Shown: positions 6,843 through 50,264 of the stretch, in pieces
How positions within the stretch are numbered: the stretch's first letter is position 1
Layout of the letters: each line of letters begins with the position of its first letter
Source: Actinomycetota bacterium
Lineage (GTDB): Bacteria; Actinomycetota; CADDZG01; WHSQ01
NCBI GenBank assembly: GCA_009377815.1
Contig: WHTI01000009.1
Span: forward strand, 1-51,472
Reading direction: 5' to 3'
DNA length: 51,472 bases
The notes under the pieces: generated by a model
The model's database searches: none
What the model was told of the DNA's origin: nothing
Seen by the model: the letters and a program-made list of their open reading frames with translations, nothing else
Translations under genes and position numbers: made by a program

Positions 6843-8522
6843 ATGTGGGTACTCTCCCTCCATGCATCCCGCCAGGCATCACGCACGATCGTGAGCGCGT
6901 TCAACGGGCTCCGAACCCTCGCCGACATCGCTCGGCCGCAGACCCTGCGGGCCCTCAAGGGTGCCGGCACCTTCTCGCCCATGAGTCCGGTGGCGATCAC
7001 TTCAGCACTTCCGTGGCTCCTAGGCAGAGGCCCGTCGTTGGGGATCCTGGCTCAGATGAACGCAGTAGCGCTCGGCCGCAAGACCGCGATCCATGATCGC
7101 TCCGGTTCGATGACGTTCGGAGAACTGGATCGCATGACGAACCGGATCGCCGGCGCACTGGCGGGGGCTGGGGTCGAGCCAGGAGACCCGGTGGCCATGC
7201 TTCTCAGGAACGGCCGCGAGATGGCCGCGGTGATCCTCGCCTGCCAGAAGGCGGGATTCGTCGCCTGCCCCATGAACACGTGGGGCAAGACGACCGAACT
7301 CAAAGCGACGCTCGCGAATGCATCGGCCAAGGTCGTCTTCTACGACACGAAGCACTCCGAGCAGTTGGAGAAGGCTCTCACCGACGATGTCGGCCTCATC
7401 GCGATCGGCGACCCACTCGATGCCCTTGACGGGTCGATCCCCTTCGAGGAGTTCCTGGGCAACGGGACGGGTCGGCCCCCAGCCCCCTTCACCCTTCACC
7501 GGGGTTCGGCCAGGATCGTGATCCACACCTCGGGCACGACGGGGACGCCCAAGGGAGCGCAGCGGGACGCGGCCTCATCGGGATTGGGCCGCATGGCGGA
7601 GGTCCTCACGGTCGTTCCGTTCCGCCGAAGCGATGTCATCTTCTGTGTCTCGCCCCTGTTCCACTCCTTCGGACTCCTCACCTTCACGCTGGCGACCGCG
7701 CTCGGAGCGACGCTCATTCTTCCCGAACGCTTCGACGCCGAGGGTTCCCTGGAGGAGATCGAGGAACACTCGGCCACTGCCGCCTCCTTCGTGCCCGTGA
7801 TGATCAGACGCATCGTCGACCTCGACGATGAGTCGCGCGCTCGCCATGACGTGAGCAGTCTTCGGATCGTGTTGGCGAGCGGCTCCGCACTGTCCCCCGA
7901 TCTACGGGCGGCCGCTACCGGGGTCTTCGGCCCCGTCCTTTACGACCTCTACGGCTCGACGGAAGCGGGATGGGTCGCGATCGCCACCCCCCACGATATG
8001 GCCGAGGAGCCGAAGACGGTGGGGAAGCTGGTCCCCGGCACCGAGGTGATCCTCCTGTCGAAGGACGGCGAGCGGCTCCCTGCAGGCGAGATCGGCGAGA
8101 TCCATGTGAAGTCGGAGATGGTGTTCGAGGGATACACGTCCGGTGACAGCCGCCCGATCGTCGACGGCTACATCTCGATCGGTGACCTCGGCCGTATCGA
8201 TGAGCGGGGGTACGTCTTCGTCGAAGGGCGTTCCGACGACATGGTGGTCGTGGGAGGAGAGAACGTCTATCCGATCGAGGTCGAAGAGGTCATCGAAAGG
8301 CACCCCGCGGTCCGGGAGGCAGCGGTCATGGGGGCGGACGACCCCGAGCTGGGCCAGGTGATGGTCGCCTTCGTGGCCGGCGACGTGTCCGAAGACGAGA
8401 TCCTTGCCCACTGCTCTTCGGAGCTCGCGTCGTACAAGGTCCCCCGCAAGATAAAGGTGATGGACGAGCTTCCGCGGACCGCCACGGGGAAGATCCTCAA
8501 GCGCGAGCTCGACGATGCCTAA
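6843..8522 (+). CDS. AMP-binding acyl-CoA synthetase
   Basis: This 559-residue protein belongs to the ANL adenylating superfamily. The P-loop is TSGTTGTPKGA, motif YGSTEAG marks the acyl-adenylate site, GDLGRIDERGYVFVEGR is the hinge, and the catalytic lysine lies in TATGKILKREL at the C-terminus. The N-terminal region (TLRALKGAGTF, then AILDRSG-like sequence) is typical of actinobacterial fatty acyl-CoA synthetases, which activate an acid to its CoA thioester. The start at 6843 is the first ATG that keeps this N-terminus. The stop overlaps the next gene by 8 bp, so the two are coupled. The exact acid is not predictable. Confidence 0.85.
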   Translation: MWVLSLHASRQASRTIVSAFNGLRTLADIARPQTLRALKGAGTFSPMSPVAITSALPWLLGRGPSLGILAQMNAVALGRKTAIHDRSGSMTFGELDRMTNRIAGALAGAGVEPGDPVAMLLRNGREMAAVILACQKAGFVACPMNTWGKTTELKATLANASAKVVFYDTKHSEQLEKALTDDVGLIAIGDPLDALDGSIPFEEFLGNGTGRPPAPFTLHRGSARIVIHTSGTTGTPKGAQRDAASSGLGRMAEVLTVVPFRRSDVIFCVSPLFHSFGLLTFTLATALGATLILPERFDAEGSLEEIEEHSATAASFVPVMIRRIVDLDDESRARHDVSSLRIVLASGSALSPDLRAAATGVFGPVLYDLYGSTEAGWVAIATPHDMAEEPKTVGKLVPGTEVILLSKDGERLPAGEIGEIHVKSEMVFEGYTSGDSRPIVDGYISIGDLGRIDERGYVFVEGRSDDMVVVGGENVYPIEVEEVIERHPAVREAAVMGADDPELGQVMVAFVAGDVSEDEILAHCSSELASYKVPRKIKVMDELPRTATGKILKRELDDA

Positions 8523-9321
8523 GTTCTCGTACGACGGATTCGACATCGCCTACGAGGAACGCGGTCACGGGCGCGCCGGGCTGGACCGGCCCTTCGTCTT
8601 GATCCACGGACTTCTGTTCGCCCGGACGCATCACTTCCCGCTGGCCGACGCACTCGCCGAACGCGGGAACCGGATCGTCCTGATCGACCTGCTCGGTCAT
8701 GGCGAGAGCGACAAACCACCACACTCGCGCCACTACTCTATGGAGATCTACGGGCGCCAGGTCCTCGCCCTTATGGACCGCCTCGGGATCGAAGAGGCCG
8801 TGGTCGGTGGAACCTCGTTGGGCGCGAACGTGACGCTGGAAGCTGCCAATCGATCACCCGAGCGGGTCCGCGCGATGGTCCTGGAGATGCCGGTGCTCGA
8901 ACGAGCAGCTCCCGTCGCGGCGATGCTCTTCCTTCCGCTGACGCTCGCCTATTCGCAAGGCGCCGCGCTGATAAACGCGGGGTCCCGACTGATACGACGG
9001 ATCCCGCGCGGGATGGGCCTCTACCCCGACGCGTTGCTCGAACTCTTGTCACGCGATGCCGTCCCGTCGGCCGCGGTGCTTCATGGTCTCCTGACCGGAC
9101 GCCTGGCCCCCCATCCCGAGGAACGTCACAAGCTCGAAGTCCCGGCTCTCCTGATCGGTCACCCGAACGATCTTCTGCATCCCTTCAGTGACGTCGAAGC
9201 CCTGGGCCGTGAGCTCCCTCGCTCCGAACTGGTCCGATCGGATTCGTTCTTCGAGCTTCGCTTCCCACCCAATCGGCTGTCGGATCGCATCGCCGACTAC
9301 CTGGATGAGATGTGGCGGTAA
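8515..9321 (+). CDS. Alpha/beta hydrolase fold protein
   Basis: This 268-residue protein has the oxyanion region VLIHGLLF, the LLGHGESDKP turn and a nucleophile elbow GGTSLG with Ser101. A likely acid sits in IGHPNDLLHPFSD. No histidine is found in the canonical C-terminal position, where the sequence instead reads SDSFFELRFPPNRLS; this may be a subfamily trait, so catalytic competence is uncertain. It overlaps the acyl-CoA synthetase by 8 bp and the next gene by 10 bp, which suggests a joint role in acyl-thioester or ester metabolism. Confidence 0.78.
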   Translation: MPKFSYDGFDIAYEERGHGRAGLDRPFVLIHGLLFARTHHFPLADALAERGNRIVLIDLLGHGESDKPPHSRHYSMEIYGRQVLALMDRLGIEEAVVGGTSLGANVTLEAANRSPERVRAMVLEMPVLERAAPVAAMLFLPLTLAYSQGAALINAGSRLIRRIPRGMGLYPDALLELLSRDAVPSAAVLHGLLTGRLAPHPEERHKLEVPALLIGHPNDLLHPFSDVEALGRELPRSELVRSDSFFELRFPPNRLSDRIADYLDEMWR

Positions 9322-9977
9322 CGCCCACCTACGAGGTCTTTCCCCGGGACGCCTACGCGGATGGCGTTGCAGCGAGGATCTCGGAAAACCTGGTGCCCGG
9401 GCCCGTGATGATCACCGGGGGCAACACCGCGGCCGCGGTCTACCGGGCACTTGCGGTCCTCGAGATCAACTGGGACGCCCATCAGATCCTGTTCTCGGAC
9501 GAGCGCGCGGTTCCCCCTACCGACGAGGCAAGCAACCACCGGATGGCAGCCGAGACATTGTTAGAGCCGGCGGGGATCAACGACGTCTTGCGCATCCGGG
9601 GAGAAGACGACCCGACCGCCGCTGCCCTCGACTACGAGCGAGCCATCCACCCCGCCCTGACGCAGGGCATCGCCCTGCAGATCCTCGGGATGGGCGACGA
9701 CTGCCACATCGCCGCCCTCTTCCCCGGCTCCCCCGCTCTCCGCGAGACCGAACGCCTGGTCGTCGCCGTCGATCGGCCGGACGGGCTGCGTGGGATCACG
9801 CTCACACCGCCGGCGCTCAAGAGGGCAGAGCGGACCTTCGTGATCGTGACCGGAGGCGGGAAAGCGGAGGCCGTGGCACGCGCCCTGCGCTCAGACGACC
9901 CGGCCGACACCTGCCCGGTCCATCTCCTCAGCGGTCCCCACTTCCTACTCGACGAGGATGCTGCTTCGGGCCTCTGA
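9312..9977 (+). CDS. pgl: 6-phosphogluconolactonase family protein
   Basis: This 221-residue protein follows the Pgl/glucosamine-6-phosphate isomerase fold: ITGGNTAAAVYRAL near the N-terminus, FSDERAVP (61-68) with downstream SN, and LGMGDDCHIAALFPGSPAL (125-143), where His132 is the expected catalytic base. The usual D-G-H triad reads D-C-H here. The expected reaction is hydrolysis of 6-phosphogluconolactone in the oxidative pentose phosphate pathway. It starts with GTG overlapping the hydrolase stop. No zwf or gnd is adjacent, which is unusual but not disqualifying. Confidence 0.78.
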   Translation: MAVTPTYEVFPRDAYADGVAARISENLVPGPVMITGGNTAAAVYRALAVLEINWDAHQILFSDERAVPPTDEASNHRMAAETLLEPAGINDVLRIRGEDDPTAAALDYERAIHPALTQGIALQILGMGDDCHIAALFPGSPALRETERLVVAVDRPDGLRGITLTPPALKRAERTFVIVTGGGKAEAVARALRSDDPADTCPVHLLSGPHFLLDEDAASGL

Positions 9978-25929: not shown

Positions 25930-27822
25930 CTAGATACATGAGGCAGGTACGTCGAAGTCCTGGATGCCGTCGGTGGCGCTGTCCACCGAGCCCTGATCCG
26001 CGTTCACGCCGAGACCGCGCTTGGCGAACCCGGTCCAGATGAGGCACTGGTTGACGCCACCGGTCAGGGCCAGGTCGGCGGCGAGGATCGCATCGCGCGA
26101 ATCGACGAAGCCCGGCTTGCAGGGCTGCATCTTCATCCCGTCCATCACTAGCTGGAGCGCGAGGTTGTTGCCGCCCGTGGTCCAGTCCTCATAGACGTTC
26201 GGGTTGAAGCCGTACACCTCGATGAGGTCCCAGTAGACCTCCCACAGCATGGTTGCCCAGACGTAGCCGACACCGTGTGGGACGGCCGACGTCTTGATCG
26301 TGTTGTAGGTCGACGGGTTGATCGCCATGTTGTTCGAGTAAGGCGTGGGGCGGATGCCGTCTCCGGTACGAGCACCCTCGCCGAGAACGTAGGTGCCCAT
26401 GCCGCGCCGGGCATCGCCCGTCTCACCGGGAAGAGTCGTCACGGCCAGAGCCAGCCAGTCACTCCATCCTTCGCCCTCGCGCTCCTGGTGCGAGAGGCAC
26501 CCGGTCACGGTCGGTCCGCCGGTCAGGCGATTCGAGATCCCGTGAGCCCACTCGTGCAGGATCACCCCGGAATCGAGGTCGCCATCGATGAGGGTGCCCG
26601 GCTTCGGGGTTGCCCACAGGTACATCTGCATGCGCGGATTGGATCCATCCGCCGGAGTGGCGAAGTTGGCGTTGTCCACGCCGCTACCGTCGTGCGCCTC
26701 AGCCTGGACGGCGTCGGCTCCGAGCCCTTCGCCGGTGAGGTAGTTCATCGCCTGGAAGTTGCCGGCGGCCTCGTCGAACCCATAGTTGTAGAAGACGTCG
26801 TGGGCGATGTTGTTCCAGTAGAAGAGGTTGGTGATCGCGGCGTCCCGCCACAGGGGCGGGGGCATGGCGAAGTCGATCTCGAACTCGAAGTCGAGGCCCT
26901 CGCCCCCCTCCGCGTCCATCGTCGGGAGCGGTCGGTTCACACCGGGCGTGTAGTCCGCGTAGGCGTGGACGTTGTTGCCGCGCGTGGTTGTGTATTCGGC
27001 TCCGGCCACGCCGTCGGTGTCGTGCCATCCGAAGGGCGAGGACGCCGCATCGGCCGGAGATGCCTGGAGGGTCCGCTCACCGTCCTGAGGGCTCTCGAAC
27101 GGGAGGGCATACACGAGGTAGCTGGAGCCGTCGTCGACGGTCTCCTCGGGGGTCGGGGCATCGAGGGCGGTCGCGTTCCGGGCCGATGGGCGGGAGATGG
27201 CCCCGGCGATGTCCTCGGCCCGGTCGTGATCGACCAGGTCGTAGCGGGCGAGCATCGACCCGTTCTGGGCGTCGACGCTCACGTTCCACCAGTGCTGCCC
27301 GGAAAGTTCCTGGATCTCTAGGTTCCATGCAAGCCGGATGGAACGGGCACTCACAGGCTGATACACGAGCGTGGCGGTGGCCGGTGTGAGCACGTCGGAG
27401 GCGGAGAGACCGAGTCCCTTGAGGGCGTCCCCCACCGCTGTCACTGGTGTGAGCGTCGGGATCCCCGACACCTTCCGATCGATTCTCCCGATGAATCGGG
27501 AGGGCGCATAGATCACACGACCGTCTTTCACGTTGACGGTCATTCCGGCGCCGAGGACGTCGATCCCCGCGTAGCGCTGCCGAAGATAGACGTGGGTGAC
27601 ACCGGAGGCGGCGGAACGATATGTGTCGGTAACCGCCAGATCGGCGATGTCGGCGGGCTTCAGGCGCAGTTCACGACGGTGCTGGGAGACGTATCCCTTG
27701 GCAACGGATACCGCGTCCTTCTTGGCTGCCGCCTTGGTATTGGTCGCTGCCGTTCCGGCCGGCAGACCCATGCTTAGTACGGCGAGGCACGCCAGCATCG
27801 CGAGCATCGTTCTCGAGCGCAT
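25930..27822 (-). CDS. Secreted M36 (fungalysin)-type metalloprotease
   Basis: This 630-residue protein has a signal peptide, an FTP/PepSY-like propeptide (YLRQRYAGIDVLGAGMTVNV) and a catalytic domain with HEWAH at 423-427 and the third zinc ligand Glu451 in GEGWSDW. The FYWNNIAHDVFYNYGFDEAAGNFQ block is typical of M36. It would be an extracellular zinc endopeptidase. Upstream, palindrome copy 2 is centred about 80 bp before the ATG. It forms a two-gene unit with the subtilase. Confidence 0.92.
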   Translation of the reverse strand: MRSRTMLAMLACLAVLSMGLPAGTAATNTKAAAKKDAVSVAKGYVSQHRRELRLKPADIADLAVTDTYRSAASGVTHVYLRQRYAGIDVLGAGMTVNVKDGRVIYAPSRFIGRIDRKVSGIPTLTPVTAVGDALKGLGLSASDVLTPATATLVYQPVSARSIRLAWNLEIQELSGQHWWNVSVDAQNGSMLARYDLVDHDRAEDIAGAISRPSARNATALDAPTPEETVDDGSSYLVYALPFESPQDGERTLQASPADAASSPFGWHDTDGVAGAEYTTTRGNNVHAYADYTPGVNRPLPTMDAEGGEGLDFEFEIDFAMPPPLWRDAAITNLFYWNNIAHDVFYNYGFDEAAGNFQAMNYLTGEGLGADAVQAEAHDGSGVDNANFATPADGSNPRMQMYLWATPKPGTLIDGDLDSGVILHEWAHGISNRLTGGPTVTGCLSHQEREGEGWSDWLALAVTTLPGETGDARRGMGTYVLGEGARTGDGIRPTPYSNNMAINPSTYNTIKTSAVPHGVGYVWATMLWEVYWDLIEVYGFNPNVYEDWTTGGNNLALQLVMDGMKMQPCKPGFVDSRDAILAADLALTGGVNQCLIWTGFAKRGLGVNADQGSVDSATDGIQDFDVPASCI

Positions 27823-39637: not shown

Positions 39638-41053
39638 ATGCGAAGCAGGCTGGTTGGCGTCGCCATAGCGATCGGACTCATCGGACTACCGGCCGCTCAC
39701 GCGAGTGCGCAGGTTCCCCCTATCCCTTTCCCAGGCACCAACCCACCGATCGTCACCTCGGACAACGTCACCTACCACGGCACGATCCCGATCGACTCTC
39801 CCGGAGTCGGTGGTGAGGTCGTCCATCACGCCGACGGGCGGACCTACTTCTACGTCACCGGTCTGAAGGGGCTCTCGATCTACGACGTCACCGATGACCC
39901 CACCGCGCCTGTCCTCACCGGCGTCCTGCCCTTCCCCCACGCTCAGAACGAGGACCTCAAGGTCAGTGACGACGGGACCAGGGCCATGATCTCCGCCGAC
40001 GGCGCGCTACTGCTCCCCCTCTTCCCCACGAGCCGCGGTATCCACATCATCGACACTAGCGACCCGGCTGCTCCGGTCCTCCTGGGGTCGACCTCGACGA
40101 CGGAGTCCAACCACACCGCGGAATGCGCCGACCCGAAGTGCGAATGGATCTACGGCAGCTCAACCGGCGCGATCTACGACGCAACCGACCCCACCGACAT
40201 CAAGCGACTGGGACAGTGGAACGTAGATCGCAACGGGAATAACGTCGAAGGACGGCACGCGCTGAACCGCGACGACAGTGGCTTGTTGATCAGCGACTCC
40301 AACCCGAGACTCGTGCTCGACCCACGCGACGACCCCGCCAACCCGGTTCTACTGGCGCAGGGCAGCAGGTCACCGAACGGGGACGGACGCCTGCAGCACA
40401 ACAACGTGCGGCCGGACAGTGGCGAGTGGCTGCCGCGCGATCCGGAGAACCCGGACGACGCCATCGGATACACCACCGTCGAAACCAATGCACGTTCGAT
40501 CTCGATCATCGACGAACGTCCTGTGATGCGGGAGGGCGAGATCATGATCGGAAACTCCGAAAGCAATCTCAACCCAACCTGTTCGAACGCGGGAGGGCTC
40601 TCGACCTGGAGCATGATCGACTTCGAGAAGGGCGCCGAGATGCAGCAGCTCGAGGTCTTCCGTCCCTTGAACGGCACGACCGTCGATGGCAGTCCCGCGG
40701 TGAATGCTCTGGGGTGCTCGGGGCACTGGTTCACCGAGAACGACGGCGTCGTCGCGGCGTCGTGGTACGAACACGGCGTCCGCTTCTTCGACGTGGATAA
40801 GACCCTCGGCACGATCGAGGAGGTCGGTTACTTCCAGCCGGTGGCGACGCAGGCGGGCGCGGCCCACTGGGTCAGCGACACGGTCGTCTACAACGTCGAC
40901 TACGCCCGCGGCATCGACATCATCAGCTTCGACCGGGGAGCTCCGGAACCTGCACAGAAGGAACTCGATCGTTCGTGGCTCCGCAACCTCGGCACCGTCG
41001 GGAACTACGCACGGGCCGAGCGCTACTTCTGCGGTCTGGGCGGGACCAACTGA
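39638..41053 (+). CDS. Secreted LVIVD-repeat beta-propeller protein (second copy)
   Basis: This 471-residue protein has a signal peptide and several propeller-blade motifs: LSIYDVTDDPTAPVLTG, IHIIDTSDPAAPVLLGS, GAIYDATDPTDIKRLGQW, LSTWSMIDF, and VRFFDVDKTLG. Like its relative at 30.3 kb it has conserved Cys (ECADPKCEW, LGCSGHW) that could form disulfides, plus a shared block near the end (HWVSDTVVYNVDYARGIDII against YWFSDSNTW...DISRGLDIF). Function is not established. It follows palindrome copy 5 and is convergent, by one base, with the PQQ-type propeller. Confidence 0.85.
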   Translation: MRSRLVGVAIAIGLIGLPAAHASAQVPPIPFPGTNPPIVTSDNVTYHGTIPIDSPGVGGEVVHHADGRTYFYVTGLKGLSIYDVTDDPTAPVLTGVLPFPHAQNEDLKVSDDGTRAMISADGALLLPLFPTSRGIHIIDTSDPAAPVLLGSTSTTESNHTAECADPKCEWIYGSSTGAIYDATDPTDIKRLGQWNVDRNGNNVEGRHALNRDDSGLLISDSNPRLVLDPRDDPANPVLLAQGSRSPNGDGRLQHNNVRPDSGEWLPRDPENPDDAIGYTTVETNARSISIIDERPVMREGEIMIGNSESNLNPTCSNAGGLSTWSMIDFEKGAEMQQLEVFRPLNGTTVDGSPAVNALGCSGHWFTENDGVVAASWYEHGVRFFDVDKTLGTIEEVGYFQPVATQAGAAHWVSDTVVYNVDYARGIDIISFDRGAPEPAQKELDRSWLRNLGTVGNYARAERYFCGLGGTN

Positions 41054-41054
41054 G

Positions 41055-42596
41055 CTAGGGATCTCCGATAGCGAACAGCTGCCCGGCTCTGGTGCCGACG
41101 TAGATCATCCCCTTCCACACCGCGGGGGTTGACTCCACGCAGCCAGGAAGCTCGACGGTCCAGAGTTCCTCGGGCGGTCTCTGCAGCGGACGCTTGACGT
41201 TGTACGCGTGCATAACGCCGGCGCAGTCGCTCTGGATCAACGTGTGCCCGATTACGACCGGTGAGCTCCACGTGGGCTCGGGCAGTTCCATCTCCCAGGC
41301 GATCTCACCCGTCATGCGGTCGACCGCCAGCACCCGGCCGGTGTTGGTCGGCACGAACAACGCGCGCTTGTAGATCGCGGGCGTCGCCCAGATCCCGCCG
41401 TCGACCCCGCTCTCGGGCCGGCCGGGAACGAGCAGTGACCACACGAGGGGGTCGTTCGGACGGCGGGGATCGAGCTTCATCAGCTGCCCGACCTCGTAAC
41501 CGCGGTCGTTGTAACGCTCCTGCTCGGATGCGACGTAGAGGAAGCCCTCGGGATCCATGACCAGACTGGCGTCGGTGTCGTCGCCGGTCCAGAACCGGAA
41601 GACCCTCTTGATCTTCTTCTTCCCGTCGAGGACGCGCGAGATGTCCCACCCCTGAACCAGGCCCCCGGAGTTGGCGAAGTAGGCAACGCCGTCCGAGTAC
41701 ACGACCGAGTTCTCGATCGAAACATCGGTGTCGCCCAGATCGGCGAGAAGCTGATCGTCGTACCCCGGAACCAGTGCCCTGATCTCGGGAGCAACCGTCA
41801 CCAACCCGTCGGAGTCGTACCCGCGGTTCAACTTCACGACGTAGAACCACGAGTTCTCGCCGCCCTCGATGAGATAGTCGTCGATGATCAGCCCGGATCC
41901 GTCCCAGTCGTTGTTCCACAGCGGGTTGGGAGCGGTGTCGGCGTTGAGGCTCCAGAGTTCGACCGGAGTCTCTCCCCGATCGAGGGCCAGCACGTGGTAT
42001 TCGTTGTCGCGCGATCCCGAATACAGCAGCGGGTAACCGTCGGGATCGCTGGTGACCGTTCCCTTGATCAGGTCGCCGGTCGGGAACGTCTCGTATAGGG
42101 GGACCCCATCCTTTGCGTTCAAGATGTGGATCCCGCGGTCGTAGGCACCGAACCTGACCTCGGTGCGCCCACCGACCTCAACGACATTCGGCTGCCCGGT
42201 CCATCCCGTGCCGCACCAGGTCCGTGGTCCGGCCTGGTCGATCGACTCCGAACACATCGCGCCCGAAGTCGGGTACTGCCACAGAACCTCGGGGGCCGAC
42301 GGCAACGGGCCCTTCCCGTAATAGGTCCGGGTGGCGTTGCCCCGGAAGGTCGTGAGCCCGGGGAAGGCCGTGTTGATCGGCTCGGGTTTCGGCTTGGGGG
42401 TGGGAGTGGGCGTGGGAGATCCCGAGGGCGAGGTTGAGGGAGCTGGCCCCGAGCCCCTCAAGGGATCGTCATCGCCGGAGTTCGATATGAACCAGAATCC
42501 AGCCACGACGAGACACAGGGCGACGAGGCTTCCGCCAACCCTCCGGGAAGAAACGGCACCGAACTCATCCGACCAACGCACCAATCGGGAACCCAA
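41055..42596 (-). CDS. Membrane-anchored PQQ-like beta-propeller protein
   Basis: This 513-residue protein has an N-terminal signal anchor (VGGSLVALCLVVAGFWFISN), then a Pro/Thr/Ser-rich linker with TPTPTPKPKPEP, then repeats of the PQQ-like propeller type: GIHILNAKDGVPLYETF, HVLALDRGETPVELWSL, VLAVDRMTGEIAWEMELP and GMIYVGTRAGQLFAIGDP. The catalytic domain would face outside the membrane. Such propellers can be scaffolds or, when they bind PQQ, dehydrogenases; I see no PQQ-dehydrogenase Cys-Cys motif. It is divergent from the thioredoxin-like gene of the mau-like cassette. Confidence 0.78.
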   Translation of the reverse strand: MGSRLVRWSDEFGAVSSRRVGGSLVALCLVVAGFWFISNSGDDDPLRGSGPAPSTSPSGSPTPTPTPKPKPEPINTAFPGLTTFRGNATRTYYGKGPLPSAPEVLWQYPTSGAMCSESIDQAGPRTWCGTGWTGQPNVVEVGGRTEVRFGAYDRGIHILNAKDGVPLYETFPTGDLIKGTVTSDPDGYPLLYSGSRDNEYHVLALDRGETPVELWSLNADTAPNPLWNNDWDGSGLIIDDYLIEGGENSWFYVVKLNRGYDSDGLVTVAPEIRALVPGYDDQLLADLGDTDVSIENSVVYSDGVAYFANSGGLVQGWDISRVLDGKKKIKRVFRFWTGDDTDASLVMDPEGFLYVASEQERYNDRGYEVGQLMKLDPRRPNDPLVWSLLVPGRPESGVDGGIWATPAIYKRALFVPTNTGRVLAVDRMTGEIAWEMELPEPTWSSPVVIGHTLIQSDCAGVMHAYNVKRPLQRPPEELWTVELPGCVESTPAVWKGMIYVGTRAGQLFAIGDP

Positions 42597-42673
42597 GGCT
42601 CGATCGTAGTTGGCTCGGCCCCGAAAAGGAACGATGGTTAGCTTTCCCAGCGAAGGGAACTGAGCTTCTATCG

Positions 42674-43042
42674 ATGGAGGAACCCGGGATTGACCTGAAG
42701 AGCACCACCGGAAGGATCGTGACGCTGGCCCCCCGCGCCGGCGGCCGCCTGTTCTTGTTCTTCACCCCCAACTGCACCTTCTGCAAGGGCATCCTCGAGG
42801 AAGCCGCGGTGATCTCGTCGTCGACCGGCATCGATGTCGTCGTCTTCCTCGAAGACACCCATGGGACCCCAGATCCCTATCCTGGGCCAGCCCCCGTGGT
42901 CGTGTCGCGCGACGTCTTCGTAAGATACGCAGTGGACGAGACCCCTCACGCGATCGCGATCGGACCCACTGGAGAGATCGCGGGCCGGGTCACCCTCAGC
43001 GCGAACGGGCAGCTCGGTGCGCTCGCAGCATCGCTTCCCTGA
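42674..43042 (+). CDS. Thioredoxin-like redox protein without export signal
   Basis: This 122-residue protein has a thioredoxin-like core with a CTFC site in LFFTPNCTFCKG, and its later PHAIAIGPTGEIAGRV matches the cis-Pro strand of that fold. It has no signal peptide or membrane segment, unlike the MauD-like protein of the same cluster, so it would act in the cytoplasm or be an N-terminally shortened relative. It is divergent from the PQQ-type propeller by 77 bp and convergent with the next gene. Confidence 0.7.
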   Translation: MEEPGIDLKSTTGRIVTLAPRAGGRLFLFFTPNCTFCKGILEEAAVISSSTGIDVVVFLEDTHGTPDPYPGPAPVVVSRDVFVRYAVDETPHAIAIGPTGEIAGRVTLSANGQLGALAASLP

Positions 43043-43588
43043 TCAGGGAACCGGAAGTGGCTCCGTCACCCAGGCATCGTTCTGCGGCGCCATGTCGAAA
43101 CAGACATCACTGCAAGCGCTGGAGCCGTAGTACAGCGTCTGCGCCCTCCACGAGTACGTCGCCCTGTCGTCTCCGACCTTTACGCGGCTGAGGGAGAGTT
43201 GGATCGAAGCCGACTTCCGGTTCTTGCGCCACACCTTGACCTTCCCTACCTGATAGTCCTTCTTGTTCTTACGATCACGGAACAGACGAGCCTTCAGCTT
43301 GTCGTGCGTCGGGAAAATCGTGACGTAGTAGTCGGGCGCGGAGTCGAAACGGGTATCGAGGTCGACGACGAGGGTTCCAACACTCCATATCTCCTTGACG
43401 CTCCAACCTTTGTAAGTGATCAAACGCCAGGTGAGCTTGTCTTCTCCCGAACGGATGACCCGTCTCAGGTCGAGCTTGCCGCGCACGTCATTCGGATCGG
43501 AGATCTCCATCTTGGCCGCACTCGCCGGAGCTGCACTCAGCAGTACCGCGATCATCACAACGAGAGGTACCGGCTTCAGAGCCTTCAT
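43043..43588 (-). CDS. Secreted protein of unknown function
   Basis: This 181-residue protein starts with a signal peptide (VPLVVMIAVLLSAAPASAA) and a beta-rich domain (DLRRVIRSGEDKLTWRLITY and later YYVTIFPTHDKLKARLFRD). It ends with YYGSSACSDVCFDMAPQNDA, containing one Cys pair. I recognise no family. The ATG overlaps the TGA of the MauE-like gene upstream (ATGA) and has AAGGAGATC before it. Its linkage to mau-like genes suggests it is an exported client or partner of that redox system. Confidence 0.72.
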   Translation of the reverse strand: MKALKPVPLVVMIAVLLSAAPASAAKMEISDPNDVRGKLDLRRVIRSGEDKLTWRLITYKGWSVKEIWSVGTLVVDLDTRFDSAPDYYVTIFPTHDKLKARLFRDRKNKKDYQVGKVKVWRKNRKSASIQLSLSRVKVGDDRATYSWRAQTLYYGSSACSDVCFDMAPQNDAWVTEPLPVP

Positions 43589-44118
43589 GATCTCCTTCCC
43601 GCACCGAGTGCGACGGCTGCAGCGCGACCTAGCCAAGTGAAGAGCCCCGCTCCGATCAACACCAAAATGAACGGGACGAGTTCTCCTCCGGCCGGAGGAT
43701 CCCAGTCCGACAGAACGGAGACCCCGGGACCGAAGAGGGTGATGGCGGCCAGGGCTCCGATCAGTGCGTTCCGCATCAGCATGAGTTTGAAGTCCAAAGT
43801 CCGGTTGCCACCGAAACAGCCACACGGAAGCCGGTCGCCTCGAGCGGCTCGCGCCCTGACGATAGCGCCAGAGAACGAACTCAGGAGAACGACCGCGGCC
43901 GCACCCCCCACCTTCGTGCGACCGGAAAGCATCAGGACCACGATAGACACCTCGGCGAGCGGCACCGCGATGGAGAAAAACCGCACAAGAGGAGCAGGTA
44001 GTTGATAGCCCGATAGAGCCTCGATCCACCGCCCGCGCCGCGCGATCTTGTTCACCGCCGCCCAGCCGAACAGAACGGCCACAAGCACCGCTGCAGCCCC
44101 GGTAATCGAATCCGTCAT
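43585..44118 (-). CDS. MauE-like integral membrane protein
   Basis: This 177-residue protein has four membrane helices and the MauE/DoxX-like signature: GWAAVNKIARRGRWIEALSGYQL near the first helix, AEVSIVVLML, and LPCGCFGG followed by a helix with an RN pair (LMLMRNALIGALAAI). MauE family members help form disulfides or mature the small subunit of methylamine dehydrogenase. It is translated with the secreted protein downstream (ATGA overlap) and divergent from mauD-like and mauA-like genes. Confidence 0.78.
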   Translation of the reverse strand: MTDSITGAAAVLVAVLFGWAAVNKIARRGRWIEALSGYQLPAPLVRFFSIAVPLAEVSIVVLMLSGRTKVGGAAAVVLLSSFSGAIVRARAARGDRLPCGCFGGNRTLDFKLMLMRNALIGALAAITLFGPGVSVLSDWDPPAGGELVPFILVLIGAGLFTWLGRAAAVALGAGRRS

Positions 44119-44207
44119 GGCGGGATTCTACGGGCCGGAGAGGGGCCTCTCTGTGCTCGCTTTGTTACGGAGGGGGACCGAGCCTGGGGTAGTTTGCGAC
44201 GCAGGCT

Positions 44208-44801
44208 ATGAGCGGATGGTGGGCTGTTTCCTACGTGGTTCTGTGGTGCCTCGTCGCGGCACTCACGGTCGTCGTGGTCGCGCTCGCTCGCCAGGTCGGC
44301 ACCCTACACATGCGCCTGGCGCCCTCCGGAGCGTTCGAGAATGACGACGAGGGTCCCCCGATCGGCCAAGCCCCGCCCCCCTATGCAGCCGTGGATACCC
44401 AGGGCAACCATGTGACGATCGGGGGCCCGGCCGAGCCTAAGTTCCTGCTGTTCATCTCTCCTGGATGCCGCGTGTGTTCCGAGGTGGCCCCCGGGTTGAA
44501 GGCCGCCGCCCGGGCCGGGAGCCTGGCCCCGTTCCTTATCGTCGAAGGCGAGCCGGGCACCGGAGGCAACGGCCGGGATATGTCGCGCTACGGCTCCCCC
44601 ACGATCCACTCGACCGACCTCTCTGCGTCCTACGGGATCCCCGGAACGCCCTTCGCGGTGATCCTCGATTCGGTCGGTGTGGTCCGAGCCAAGGGAACGG
44701 TTAACAACCTCGAGCAGATGGAAGGCCTGGTGGACACCGCCAGGCGCCGGATCGATGGCGAGGAAGGGACACATGCTGGAGCGAACCACCGAACGAGCTA
44801 G
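44208..44801 (+). CDS. MauD-like membrane-anchored thioredoxin protein
   Basis: This 197-residue protein has an N-terminal anchor (VSYVVLWCLVAALTVVVVAL) followed by a thioredoxin-like domain with CRVC (FISPGCRVCSEVAPGLKA) and cis-Pro region YGIPGTPFAVILD. This is the MauD layout; MauD is a disulfide-handling protein needed for methylamine dehydrogenase small-subunit maturation. The stop lies 29 bp inside the next gene, so the MauA-like protein is translated from an overlap. Confidence 0.8.
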   Translation: MSGWWAVSYVVLWCLVAALTVVVVALARQVGTLHMRLAPSGAFENDDEGPPIGQAPPPYAAVDTQGNHVTIGGPAEPKFLLFISPGCRVCSEVAPGLKAAARAGSLAPFLIVEGEPGTGGNGRDMSRYGSPTIHSTDLSASYGIPGTPFAVILDSVGVVRAKGTVNNLEQMEGLVDTARRRIDGEEGTHAGANHRTS

Positions 44802-45303
44802 CCGTAACCTGGCCGAGCGCACGAGCCGAAGATCATTCATCGGACGGCTCGGGGTCGGATTCGTTGCTCTCGTCGGAGGTCCTATGGTGGCGGTCGCCCT
44901 GCGGCCCGATCGCGCCGAGGCTTACCACATCTGTGGGCACATCTACACGACCGGTTCGTGCCCTCACCCCTACTACCCCGAGACCAGGATCGACTCTTAC
45001 GGCTATCCCGTACACCCCGAGCACGGCTACCCGGTCGACGACAGGGGAGACGTCTACAAATCGCGCGATCAAAAACGGAGCAAGATCTGTCGCGAGGTCG
45101 TGCGCGAGAAGTACCCGGAGACGACCAACGCCAAATCGGGGGGAGGTTGGTCGCGATGCTGCAAGGGCTACGTGCGAAAGGTCGTGGACTGTTGCTCGTA
45201 TTCCAGGACGAGGATCAACGGCGACGCCAGCCTGGTGGGCTACTGCTACAAAGGCCGGCGAGTCTTCTGCATCATGTATCGCGAAACCGACACGAGGTGC
45301 TGA
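44773..45303 (+). CDS. Tat-exported Cys-rich MauA-like protein
   Basis: This 176-residue protein has a twin-arginine signal (TSRRSFIGRLGVGFVALVGG) and a mature part with ten cysteines: HIC, GSC, KIC, two CC pairs (SRCCKG, DCCSYS), GYC, VFC and the terminal C. The Cys density, the GWSRCC context and adjacency to MauD- and MauE-like genes resemble the light chain of methylamine dehydrogenase, which carries six disulfides and a tryptophan-derived cofactor. Here the Trp in GGWS could match the first cofactor Trp, but the expected second Trp is not seen (VGYCYKG), so TTQ chemistry is doubtful. No mauB is recognisable nearby. Confidence 0.65.
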   Translation: MLERTTERASRNLAERTSRRSFIGRLGVGFVALVGGPMVAVALRPDRAEAYHICGHIYTTGSCPHPYYPETRIDSYGYPVHPEHGYPVDDRGDVYKSRDQKRSKICREVVREKYPETTNAKSGGGWSRCCKGYVRKVVDCCSYSRTRINGDASLVGYCYKGRRVFCIMYRETDTRC

Positions 45304-45377
45304 TGAACGACATGCTCCTGGGTGTGCTGGTCGTCTCGTCCGTCGTAGCGGGGATATCAACCCTCTACTCGCCGTGA
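45303..45377 (+). CDS. 24-residue membrane micropeptide
   Basis: The short frame starts at an ATG (45303) overlapping the stop of the MauA-like gene (TGATG) and ends at TGA 45375-45377. It encodes 24 residues: a short MNDM start, a hydrophobic core (LLGVLVVSSVVAGIS) and a TLYSP end. The overlap with the gene upstream and 9 bp spacing to the gene downstream favour real coupled translation. Such small proteins often stabilise membrane complexes. It is below usual gene-finder limits. Confidence 0.5.
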   Translation: MNDMLLGVLVVSSVVAGISTLYSP

Positions 45378-45386
45378 GGCCTCTCG

Positions 45387-45977
45387 ATGGTCGAGACCAT
45401 CACCCCTGTCGTGCACGGGGGACGCCGCTCTAGATATCTGAGATCCGTCGCCATCCACACGTTGGCGACGACGGTAGCCGCCGGAGCCGTCGGCCTCCTG
45501 TTGGGCGCCCTGGGGGCATTGGTGGGCGGCCCCTGGTCTCCCGAGGGTTCCATCGTTCTGGGAGTGATAGCCGCCGTCTACGCGGCGCGCGAGCTGTTCC
45601 ATCTCCCGATCCCCTTACCCGACCGGAAGGCTCAGGTTCCGGCGTGGTGGCGCTCCTTCTACGGCTCCGACGTAACCGCCGCGCTCTACGGACTCGGCCT
45701 CGGTCCCGGGTTCCTCACTTATCTGACCTTCGGAACCTACGCGGTGGTTCTCGCCGGCTCCTTCATCGCGGCCGACCCGTTGACCGGAGCGTTGATCAGC
45801 GCGCCGTTCGGGTTTGCGCGCGGTCTCTCGATCCTCGTCGGGTTGCGGGCGAGGAACGAAGAGATGTCTGCGGTGATCGCCGACCAGTTGACCATGGCCG
45901 GGGTGCGACCTCCGCCTCGGCTGATCAACGCGGTCGCGCTGCTCACGATCGCGGTCGTGGCCTTCGTCGTTGTCTGA
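45387..45977 (+). CDS. Multi-pass membrane protein of the mau-like cassette
   Basis: This 196-residue protein has about four to five hydrophobic segments (TTVAAGAVGLLLGALGALVG, IVLGVIAAVYAARELF, TYLTFGTYAVVLAGSFIAA, and INAVALLTIAVVAFVVV at the end). The segment GLGPGFLTYLTFGTYAVVL recalls the helices of CcdA/DsbD-type electron carriers, but the Cys residues of that family are absent. By position it is the last gene of the MauD-MauA-like operon and is followed by a strong terminator. I do not assign a function. Confidence 0.68.
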   Translation: MVETITPVVHGGRRSRYLRSVAIHTLATTVAAGAVGLLLGALGALVGGPWSPEGSIVLGVIAAVYAARELFHLPIPLPDRKAQVPAWWRSFYGSDVTAALYGLGLGPGFLTYLTFGTYAVVLAGSFIAADPLTGALISAPFGFARGLSILVGLRARNEEMSAVIADQLTMAGVRPPPRLINAVALLTIAVVAFVVV

Positions 45978-46717: not shown

Positions 46718-48358
<1,641 letters not shown>

Positions 48359-49025: not shown

Positions 49026-50264
49026 TCAGGCGACGGACCACCCCGTCTCTGCGGTCCATGCGAGCCCCAACCGGAGCATCCTCGCGAGGTTCTCTGCTGA
49101 TGCCTTGGTCCGCAACTGCTCGGAGACCTTGACGCGGCCTCGGTAGCGCGCTTTTCTTCCGCCGTTGCGAACGATGCGATAGATCACCCGTTCGACGGTC
49201 GGGCGTTTGGAGTTGTAGATCGCCTTGAACTCGGCGGTGCGTTGGAACGCGCGTGCATCGGCGAGCAACGACTCGTGCGGGCCGATCGTGATGGAGCGGC
49301 CCTGGGACGACGACGTGCAGCTCTCTTTGAGATTGCATGCATTGCACGTCGCGGCCGGGAACTGCAACCAGATGGCTCCGTTGGAGCGCGCCACCGCCGT
49401 GGTTGCCATCGCACCGGCAGGACATTTCGCGGTCTTGGCTTCGATGTCGATGTCGAACGCGCTCTTGGGGAAACCCCCGTGGGTGTTCTGCTCGGGAGGC
49501 GCCTTGGCAACCAGATCGACACCTCTTTGTTGGAGTGCTTGGCGCGTGCCACCAGAGCCATATGCGGAGTCACCCAGGACCATGACGACGCCGTCGGCGT
49601 CATCGTCTCTGTCATCGATTTCTGCCAGCAGCACATCGATCGGTTCTGCGTCGTTGACGTTGGCGGGCGTGACTTCGAGCTCGGTCACGAGCTCGGTGTC
49701 CGGATCGATCGCGACGTGGACCTTGTAGCCGTCGAAGTGGCCGTGGCGCGACTTGCGTCCGTGGCGGGCATCCGGATCGACGACCGAGACGACCCGATCT
49801 TTGGCCACCCCCCTGCGGATGCTGAAGTTGCCGTCGTCGTCAGACTCGACATCCTGGCCCGCGACGGTGGCGAGCAACTCGGCGGCGTCCGCGACATCGC
49901 CCGACAGCTCGACGCCTTCAAGGATCCCGAGCGCAGCGAGGCCATCGCGCACGAGCTCGTCGACGAGCGCGGCGCGGGCGTGCTCATCGTCCCAGTCGAT
50001 CGCGGGTTTCCCTGCGGACGAGTAGTCGTCGCGACCGAGTGTGGCCTCGATCGCAGACCTGGCGTCAGGTTCGGTCTTTGCCAGCAGCGTGAGCAGACGG
50101 CGGATCGCACCTCTGATGAGCGACACGGTGTCCTGGGTCTGAACCGCGGATAGCACCGGAGTTGAGTCGAGCACCCGCACCCCTCGCGCGTTCAGCAGGC
50201 CAGCTTCGGTTGCAACCTCCTTGAAGCGGTCGAAGATCCTTCTCGGACGCTCGGACTTTCTCAA
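49026..50264 (-). CDS. IS1182-type transposase, main (DDE) part
   Basis: The 412-residue frame starts with RKSERPRRIFDRFKEVATEA and holds the catalytic triad: Asp in VLDSTPVLSA, Asp in VMVLGDSAYGS and Glu in RPTVERVIYRIVR, with a Cys-rich zinc-like CNACNLKESC insert between. Its natural N-terminus is in the next frame (50261-50602); a one-base shift would join them as TY-FRERL-RKSE. The TTG at 50264 overlaps the TGA of that frame, but it is more likely that this is a continuous protein broken by a frameshift. Confidence 0.88.
   Translation of the reverse strand: MRKSERPRRIFDRFKEVATEAGLLNARGVRVLDSTPVLSAVQTQDTVSLIRGAIRRLLTLLAKTEPDARSAIEATLGRDDYSSAGKPAIDWDDEHARAALVDELVRDGLAALGILEGVELSGDVADAAELLATVAGQDVESDDDGNFSIRRGVAKDRVVSVVDPDARHGRKSRHGHFDGYKVHVAIDPDTELVTELEVTPANVNDAEPIDVLLAEIDDRDDDADGVVMVLGDSAYGSGGTRQALQQRGVDLVAKAPPEQNTHGGFPKSAFDIDIEAKTAKCPAGAMATTAVARSNGAIWLQFPAATCNACNLKESCTSSSQGRSITIGPHESLLADARAFQRTAEFKAIYNSKRPTVERVIYRIVRNGGRKARYRGRVKVSEQLRTKASAENLARMLRLGLAWTAETGWSVA

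Follow-up and report, generated by a model that had tools for sequence, protein, structure and literature searches.

A probable selenocysteine-containing MauF in a mau-like gene cassette of Actinomycetota, encoded beside a Cys-rich Tat-exported protein

What do Mau maturation proteins act on where genes for methylamine dehydrogenase itself are not recognised? The question is raised by a cassette of about 5 kb (positions 41055–45977) in a 51,472-nucleotide stretch from an Actinomycetota bacterium (assembly GCA_009377815.1, contig WHTI01000009.1), here called the window. An earlier reading of this DNA, the original prediction, had listed six proteins in the cassette, all of which we found to be present. 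It proposed that a Cys-rich protein exported by the twin-arginine translocation (Tat) pathway resembles MauA and pairs with an adjacent propeller replacing MauB, giving a new two-subunit oxidoreductase; as an alternative, it saw in MauD and MauE a general disulfide pathway acting on this protein. Its last open reading frame (ORF) was overlooked as part of a MauF gene. We consider it likely that the locus is a selenium-dependent maturation cassette, made up of MauF, MauE and MauD without methylamine dehydrogenase, that serves the Cys-rich Tat protein and in which MauF is a selenoprotein.

The ORF listed at positions 45387–45977 is the 3′ part of mauF. Upstream of it and in the same frame lies a 24-codon ORF (45303–45377), and a single TGA (45375–45377, + strand), the inferred selenocysteine (Sec) codon, separates the two. 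When translated in frame, mauF (45303–45977, + strand) encodes a membrane protein of the MauF/CcdA superfamily with 224 residues, MNDMLLGVLVVSSVVAGISTLYSP-U-GLSMVETITPVV..., in which the putative Sec25 has the context LYSP-U-GLSMVETITP. The ATG at 45303 overlaps the stop codon of the Cys-rich gene (TGATG), and the terminator of mauF is again a TGA (45975–45977), so that TGA carries both meanings in this gene, as internal Sec codon and as terminator. A contig scan queried with a single sequence gave the sister species only; whole-genome searches with the read-through product returned relative after relative with exactly one TGA, and a few with none. Between two species of the genus, the nonsynonymous and synonymous substitution rates downstream of the TGA were 0.15 (dN) and 0.90 (dS), and the resulting dN/dS of 0.17 shows that purifying selection continues beyond the TGA.

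As references for MauF we used authentic proteins encoded in mau clusters on annotated plasmids, from Paracoccus and Methylobacterium. Against Paracoccus MauF (P. denitrificans PDEN_RS23540, L105), HHalign gave 99.7% probability (E 5.4e-27) over 210 columns, with U25 placed on the cysteine of the SPC motif (SPC to SPU). Among 26 family members, P24-C/U25-G26 is invariant and aligns with SPCG of the reference proteins, and position 25 is the sole conserved redox residue. The first predicted membrane helix ends at this residue, which occupies the place of the 'SPC' cysteine in MauF and CcdA/DsbD-type proteins, and the motif SPUGxSM runs across the TGA. Homology over the whole length, the single redox residue in SPxG of the first membrane helix and clustering with mauE and mauD all place the protein in the MauF family; a PxPxRRAQVP loop and LYGxxLG are likewise shared with MauF of methylamine dehydrogenase clusters. 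Compared to that MauF, the proteins studied here have a probable Sec for the cysteine, no recognised mauB or mauG alongside, a different client gene and, in one related family, an in-frame fusion of mauF to mauE. For some members there are also matches to transmembrane models of DsbD/CcdA (PF02683, PF13386; E about 1e-5), a family that shares the cysteine of a Pro-Cys motif in the first helix; however, the proteins here lack the second conserved transmembrane cysteine that characterises DsbD/CcdA, have the probable Sec, and carry no fused thioredoxin domain.

If the TGA encodes Sec, its distribution should be seen alongside that of the decoding machinery. Among 397 Actinomycetota genomes we counted 51 with a full-length mauF of the TGA form and 8 with one of the Cys form, full-length meaning that the match covers residue 25. 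SelA was found in 48/51 TGA genomes versus 1/8 Cys genomes (Fisher p 2.7e-6), and SelB in 42/51 versus 1/8; the three TGA genomes without SelA have completeness values of 68%, 73% and, for G015, 94%. The window's own genome encodes SelA (510 bits), SelB (615 residues) and two tRNA-Sec with a UCA anticodon. The two tRNA genes lie on separate contigs (L051:551-643 and L052:511-603; C28, C52), which could be a true duplication or contamination, and a few relatives also have two strong tRNA-Sec matches. In the tree, three Cys forms (G147, G374 and G382), all from genomes without SelA, are nested within the Sec clade, and a reversal from Sec to Cys has therefore probably occurred in MauF. Taken as a sequence-based assignment, insertion of Sec at the TGA of mauF is highly probable.

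A putative selenocysteine insertion sequence (SECIS)-like element follows the TGA at positions 45386–45421 (+ strand), consisting of hairpin 1 (45386–45401) and hairpin 2 (45403–45421). The latter has 7 bp and an apical loop, CGUGC, that starts 32 nt past the UGA and contains G-U; loop position and G-U agree with published rules for bacterial SECIS elements (bSECIS; PMC13188914). The 48 nt after the UGA have a minimum free energy of -18.6, and TGAGG is present in all sampled genes. Since generic folding energy was weak as SECIS evidence, it was dropped in favour of covariation and a synonymous-codon test. In an alignment of 29 sequences, 89.8% of the hairpin pair cells were standard compared with 77.7% in the shuffled control, both sides had changed in 8/14 pairs, and the signal was lost when the partner was slid. 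Pairing also exceeded that of synonymous recodings of the same peptides in two groups with different peptides (z 11.5 and 7.2, both upper bounds, the sequences being related). Neither the Cys forms nor Paracoccus mauF form hairpin 1. A covariance model scored 71.4 bits at the element in the window (runner-up, 16.6); in held-out genomes the TGA genes reached 46–77 bits, and Cys forms ≤30, a difference that is partly sequence signal. A covariance-model match at 27086, on the strand opposite a metalloprotease-like gene, was judged to be due to chance.

Sec commonly takes the place of Cys at redox-active sites; its probable presence at the single conserved cysteine of MauF marks that site as the likely redox centre, and makes MauF function directly testable. 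We found no description of a role for this cysteine in the literature searched, nor, in the open literature, a paper linking MauF to selenocysteine. MauF does not appear among the 119 prokaryotic selenoprotein families of a 2026 review (PMC13188914), as far as the underlying survey is represented in the review's table, and NCBIfam 20 holds no model for these Sec-MauF proteins. Sec in a membrane-type protein is also a feature of the rhodanese/DsbD-fusion selenoprotein TsoB (NF045694), of YeeE/YedE and of SO_0444 (PMC13188914); TsoB differs in having two Sec residues in UxxxxU and a rhodanese domain, and the 26 MauF members gave no matches to the NCBIfam models of these three. We conclude that Sec-MauF is probably a so far unlisted selenoprotein family, widespread in Actinomycetota and shortened by standard gene calling; it is possible that RefSeq records for the family already carry the Sec annotation.

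The gene overlapping the start of mauF encodes the Cys-rich protein (44773–45303, + strand; 176 residues), which carries a Tat leader (TIGR01409, 18.5 bits, cut-off 16.7) and ten Cys in its mature part. It adjoins mauF in about 20 surveyed genomes. The ten Cys, together with W126, D139 and Y157, are conserved across 20 members, in part without exception; W126 and Y157 are invariant, and W126 is the only Trp of the window protein. The leader is of the MauA kind (TIGR02659, 26 bits, leader only; HHalign 96.7% over 39 columns). The mature domain is not, with an HHalign probability of 0.7% against MauA and a total score of 26.3 bits versus a cut-off of 196.85, and membership of the MauA family was rejected on sequence. 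The original prediction was thus right about the Tat leader and the ten Cys, but its likeness to MauA holds for the 39-residue leader only. Searches with the protein found nothing in the PDB and nothing meaningful in Pfam. Tryptophan tryptophylquinone (TTQ) requires two Trp; because only one is invariant in the 20 members and MauG (PF03150) was found in 0/21 cassette genomes, control genomes being positive, TTQ is unlikely to form in this protein, as judged from its sequence. For MauB (PF06433) there was no match in the 21 cassette genomes, in a search whose control set was silent as well.

The conserved core consists of mauD, the Cys-rich Tat gene, mauF(Sec), mauE and a gene for a secreted CxxxC protein; these five occur together in more than ten genera besides that of the window, in two taxonomic families, one of which has the mauF–mauE fusion. 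The product of the mauD-like gene (44208–44801, + strand), N-terminally anchored and thioredoxin-like as had been described, matches TIGR02661 (95.5 bits, E 2.7e-27) with a score short of the 188.6 bits that the curated model demands of an equivalog, and both cysteines of its C87xxC90 motif are kept in 85% or more of 22 rows. The membrane protein MauE (43585–44118, − strand) was confirmed by its Pfam model (E 4.6e-24) and has an invariant C99-G-C101. Tied to mauE by the expected ATGA overlap is the gene for the secreted protein (43043–43588, − strand), which has an invariant C159xxxC163xDxxP near its C-terminus and matches no Pfam or NCBIfam family; with CxxxC invariant, it is kept in the cassette in 15 genomes and may be another client or else a partner. 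A short thioredoxin-like protein (42674–43042, + strand), with CTFC and a weak match to TIGR02661 (E 0.0036), corresponds to the second thioredoxin of the original prediction, and the propeller of the PQQ (pyrroloquinoline quinone)/BamB type (41055–42596, − strand) was borne out by 34.0 bits to PF13360/PQQ_2 (cut-off 27.6) and an N-terminal hydrophobic segment, consistent with membrane anchoring. These last two genes adjoin the cassette only in the two genomes of the window's genus (G000 and G001) and are genus-level neighbours, not part of the core.

In other families, Sec-MauF genes that are more distant lie beside genes resembling mauE and mauD and beside genes for Cys-rich Tat proteins of greater length. 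Three of these longer proteins, from other actinobacterial families (L039:5325-6770, L040:7292-9388 and L047:7500-9662), contain TCPPGS..GWW..C..RYxIDC; as a bridge to MauA this family was rejected, its motif being suggestive and its scores within the range of shuffled controls. At another locus with Sec-MauF (L042, G132; about 8101–9492), a short Tat protein has a compact Cys cluster, CWYASGCC...DCC...GYC, and its reading frame continues into a long Cys-free region.

Work cited in PMC7794033 suggested a role for MauE in forming the disulfides of the methylamine dehydrogenase beta subunit. For the cassette studied here we propose that UGA at codon 25 would be decoded as Sec by the genome's own SelA, SelB and tRNA-Sec, directed by the hairpins directly past it. 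Electron exchange would link the Sec of MauF to MauE, through its CGC pair, and to MauD, through its CxxC; on the outer side of the membrane, MauD would make or reshuffle the five disulfides expected in the Cys-rich protein. As a second conserved cysteine is missing from MauF, the Sec is likely to pair transiently with a partner protein as a selenenyl-sulfide. On sequence grounds, this relay and the identity of the Cys-rich client appear reasonably likely, and the Cys-rich protein is the probable client of the pathway; the direction of electron flow between MauF, MauE and MauD is uncertain. This scheme fits the alternative offered in the original prediction, a MauD/MauE disulfide pathway, and extends it by the probable Sec-MauF that had been missed. 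A further implication is that the clients of Mau maturation proteins extend beyond methylamine dehydrogenase.

Several observations weigh against this interpretation. One genome (G116) has the Sec machinery yet carries the Cys form; the synonymous-codon z-scores count related sequences as independent; overall folding energy by itself is a poor discriminator between the Sec and Cys forms (p 0.11); the Rfam SECIS families gave no match; and several distant members place the second hairpin in another register. The client relation is drawn from gene neighbourhood, and AlphaFold models built from two-sequence alignments, with a predicted local distance difference test (pLDDT) score of 40–41, were of no use. 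Could the TGA then be an ordinary stop, ending a 24-residue membrane peptide, with a second gene, separate or decayed, starting at 45387? Standard annotation does yield two ORFs, with an ATG at 45387, shortly past the TGA. However, the recurrence of one TGA at a fixed alignment position in about 50 genomes of many families, its alternation with Cys and association with SelA, the covarying hairpin directly downstream, the dN/dS beyond it and the SPUGxSM motif on both sides make such a stop very improbable. The reverse direction of flow, in which a CcdA/DsbD-like MauF moves electrons from cytoplasmic thioredoxin outward and client thiols are kept or made, or wrong disulfides isomerised, has more in its favour: the matches of some members to DsbD/CcdA transmembrane models, the suitability of a low-potential selenol for reduction and the TlpA-like character of MauD. 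CcdA/DsbD proteins work with two conserved Cys, whereas MauF has one conserved redox residue, and the even number of conserved client Cys suggests stable disulfides; we regard the outward relay as rather less probable.

The remaining alternatives concern the Cys-rich protein. That it is a MauA-like subunit pairing with the PQQ-type propeller in a new oxidoreductase, the main idea of the original prediction, draws on the MauA-like leader, on a mauE and mauD neighbourhood like that of aau and mau operons, and on the adjoining propeller. Yet the propeller stands beside the cassette in this genus alone, so the notion that it replaces MauB fails; it matches BamB/PQQ models and not the MauB family PF06433, the mature part has no detectable MauA homology and a single Trp, and no MauG was found in the 21 cassette genomes. 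Two points that the prediction itself had named as refuting it, a lack of structural similarity between the Cys-rich protein and MauA and a propeller not conserved beside the other genes, thus both hold as far as sequence methods reach, and we regard the pairing as scarcely credible. The protein might instead be a divergent MauA-type quinone-cofactor protein, acting alone or with an unlinked partner and possibly carrying a derived cofactor of the Trp-Tyr or another type. Aligned by eye, W126, D139 and Y157 stand at W57, D76 and W108 of MauA; the family pattern W..CC..DCC..GYC..VFC parallels W57...C61...D76-CC...W108-C109...C121 and the Tyr sits where the C-terminal half of MauA has the second TTQ Trp; moreover, the longer Tat proteins beside other Sec-MauF genes have a CPPG...W...DC stretch. 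With profile comparisons non-significant, for the longer family as for MauA itself, no usable structure and no MauG in the 21 cassette genomes, we think this unlikely. Less probable still is a combination in which a membrane-embedded single-Sec relay, made up of MauF-U and the MauE CGC, replaces the two-cysteine chemistry of CcdA by a transmembrane selenenyl-sulfide and the client is a one-Trp MauA-like protein forming a new Trp-Tyr-type quinone cofactor; if true, a redox cofactor derived from protein would be made by a route that depends on selenium. Finally, the Cys-rich gene could encode the precursor of a secreted modified peptide, with the Mau proteins as modification enzymes, similar to ribosomally synthesized and post-translationally modified peptides (RiPPs). 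Candidate RiPP clusters of Streptomyces combine MauE/MauD homologues with precursors of at least eight Cys and likewise lack the rest of mau (PMC7794033). MauF and selenocysteine are not reported there, whereas here the substrate is a long, 176-residue Tat protein, highly conserved across families, unlike a diversifying peptide product; protease, exporter and tailoring genes were not recognised in the conserved set, and a precursor role thus seems very unlikely.

Weak, more distant MauF/DsbD-like matches with one in-frame TGA were seen at G060:C50:15286-15810, G126:C3:398224-398730 and G260:C12:569-1111, and are possibly further selenoprotein subfamilies. In the window, an LVIVD-repeat-like secreted protein (39638–41053, + strand) is encoded next to the propeller and stands beside the cassette in no other genome examined. 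A transposase-like gene (49026–50264, − strand), called by eye from its translation, lies close to the cassette and to groEL (46739–48358).

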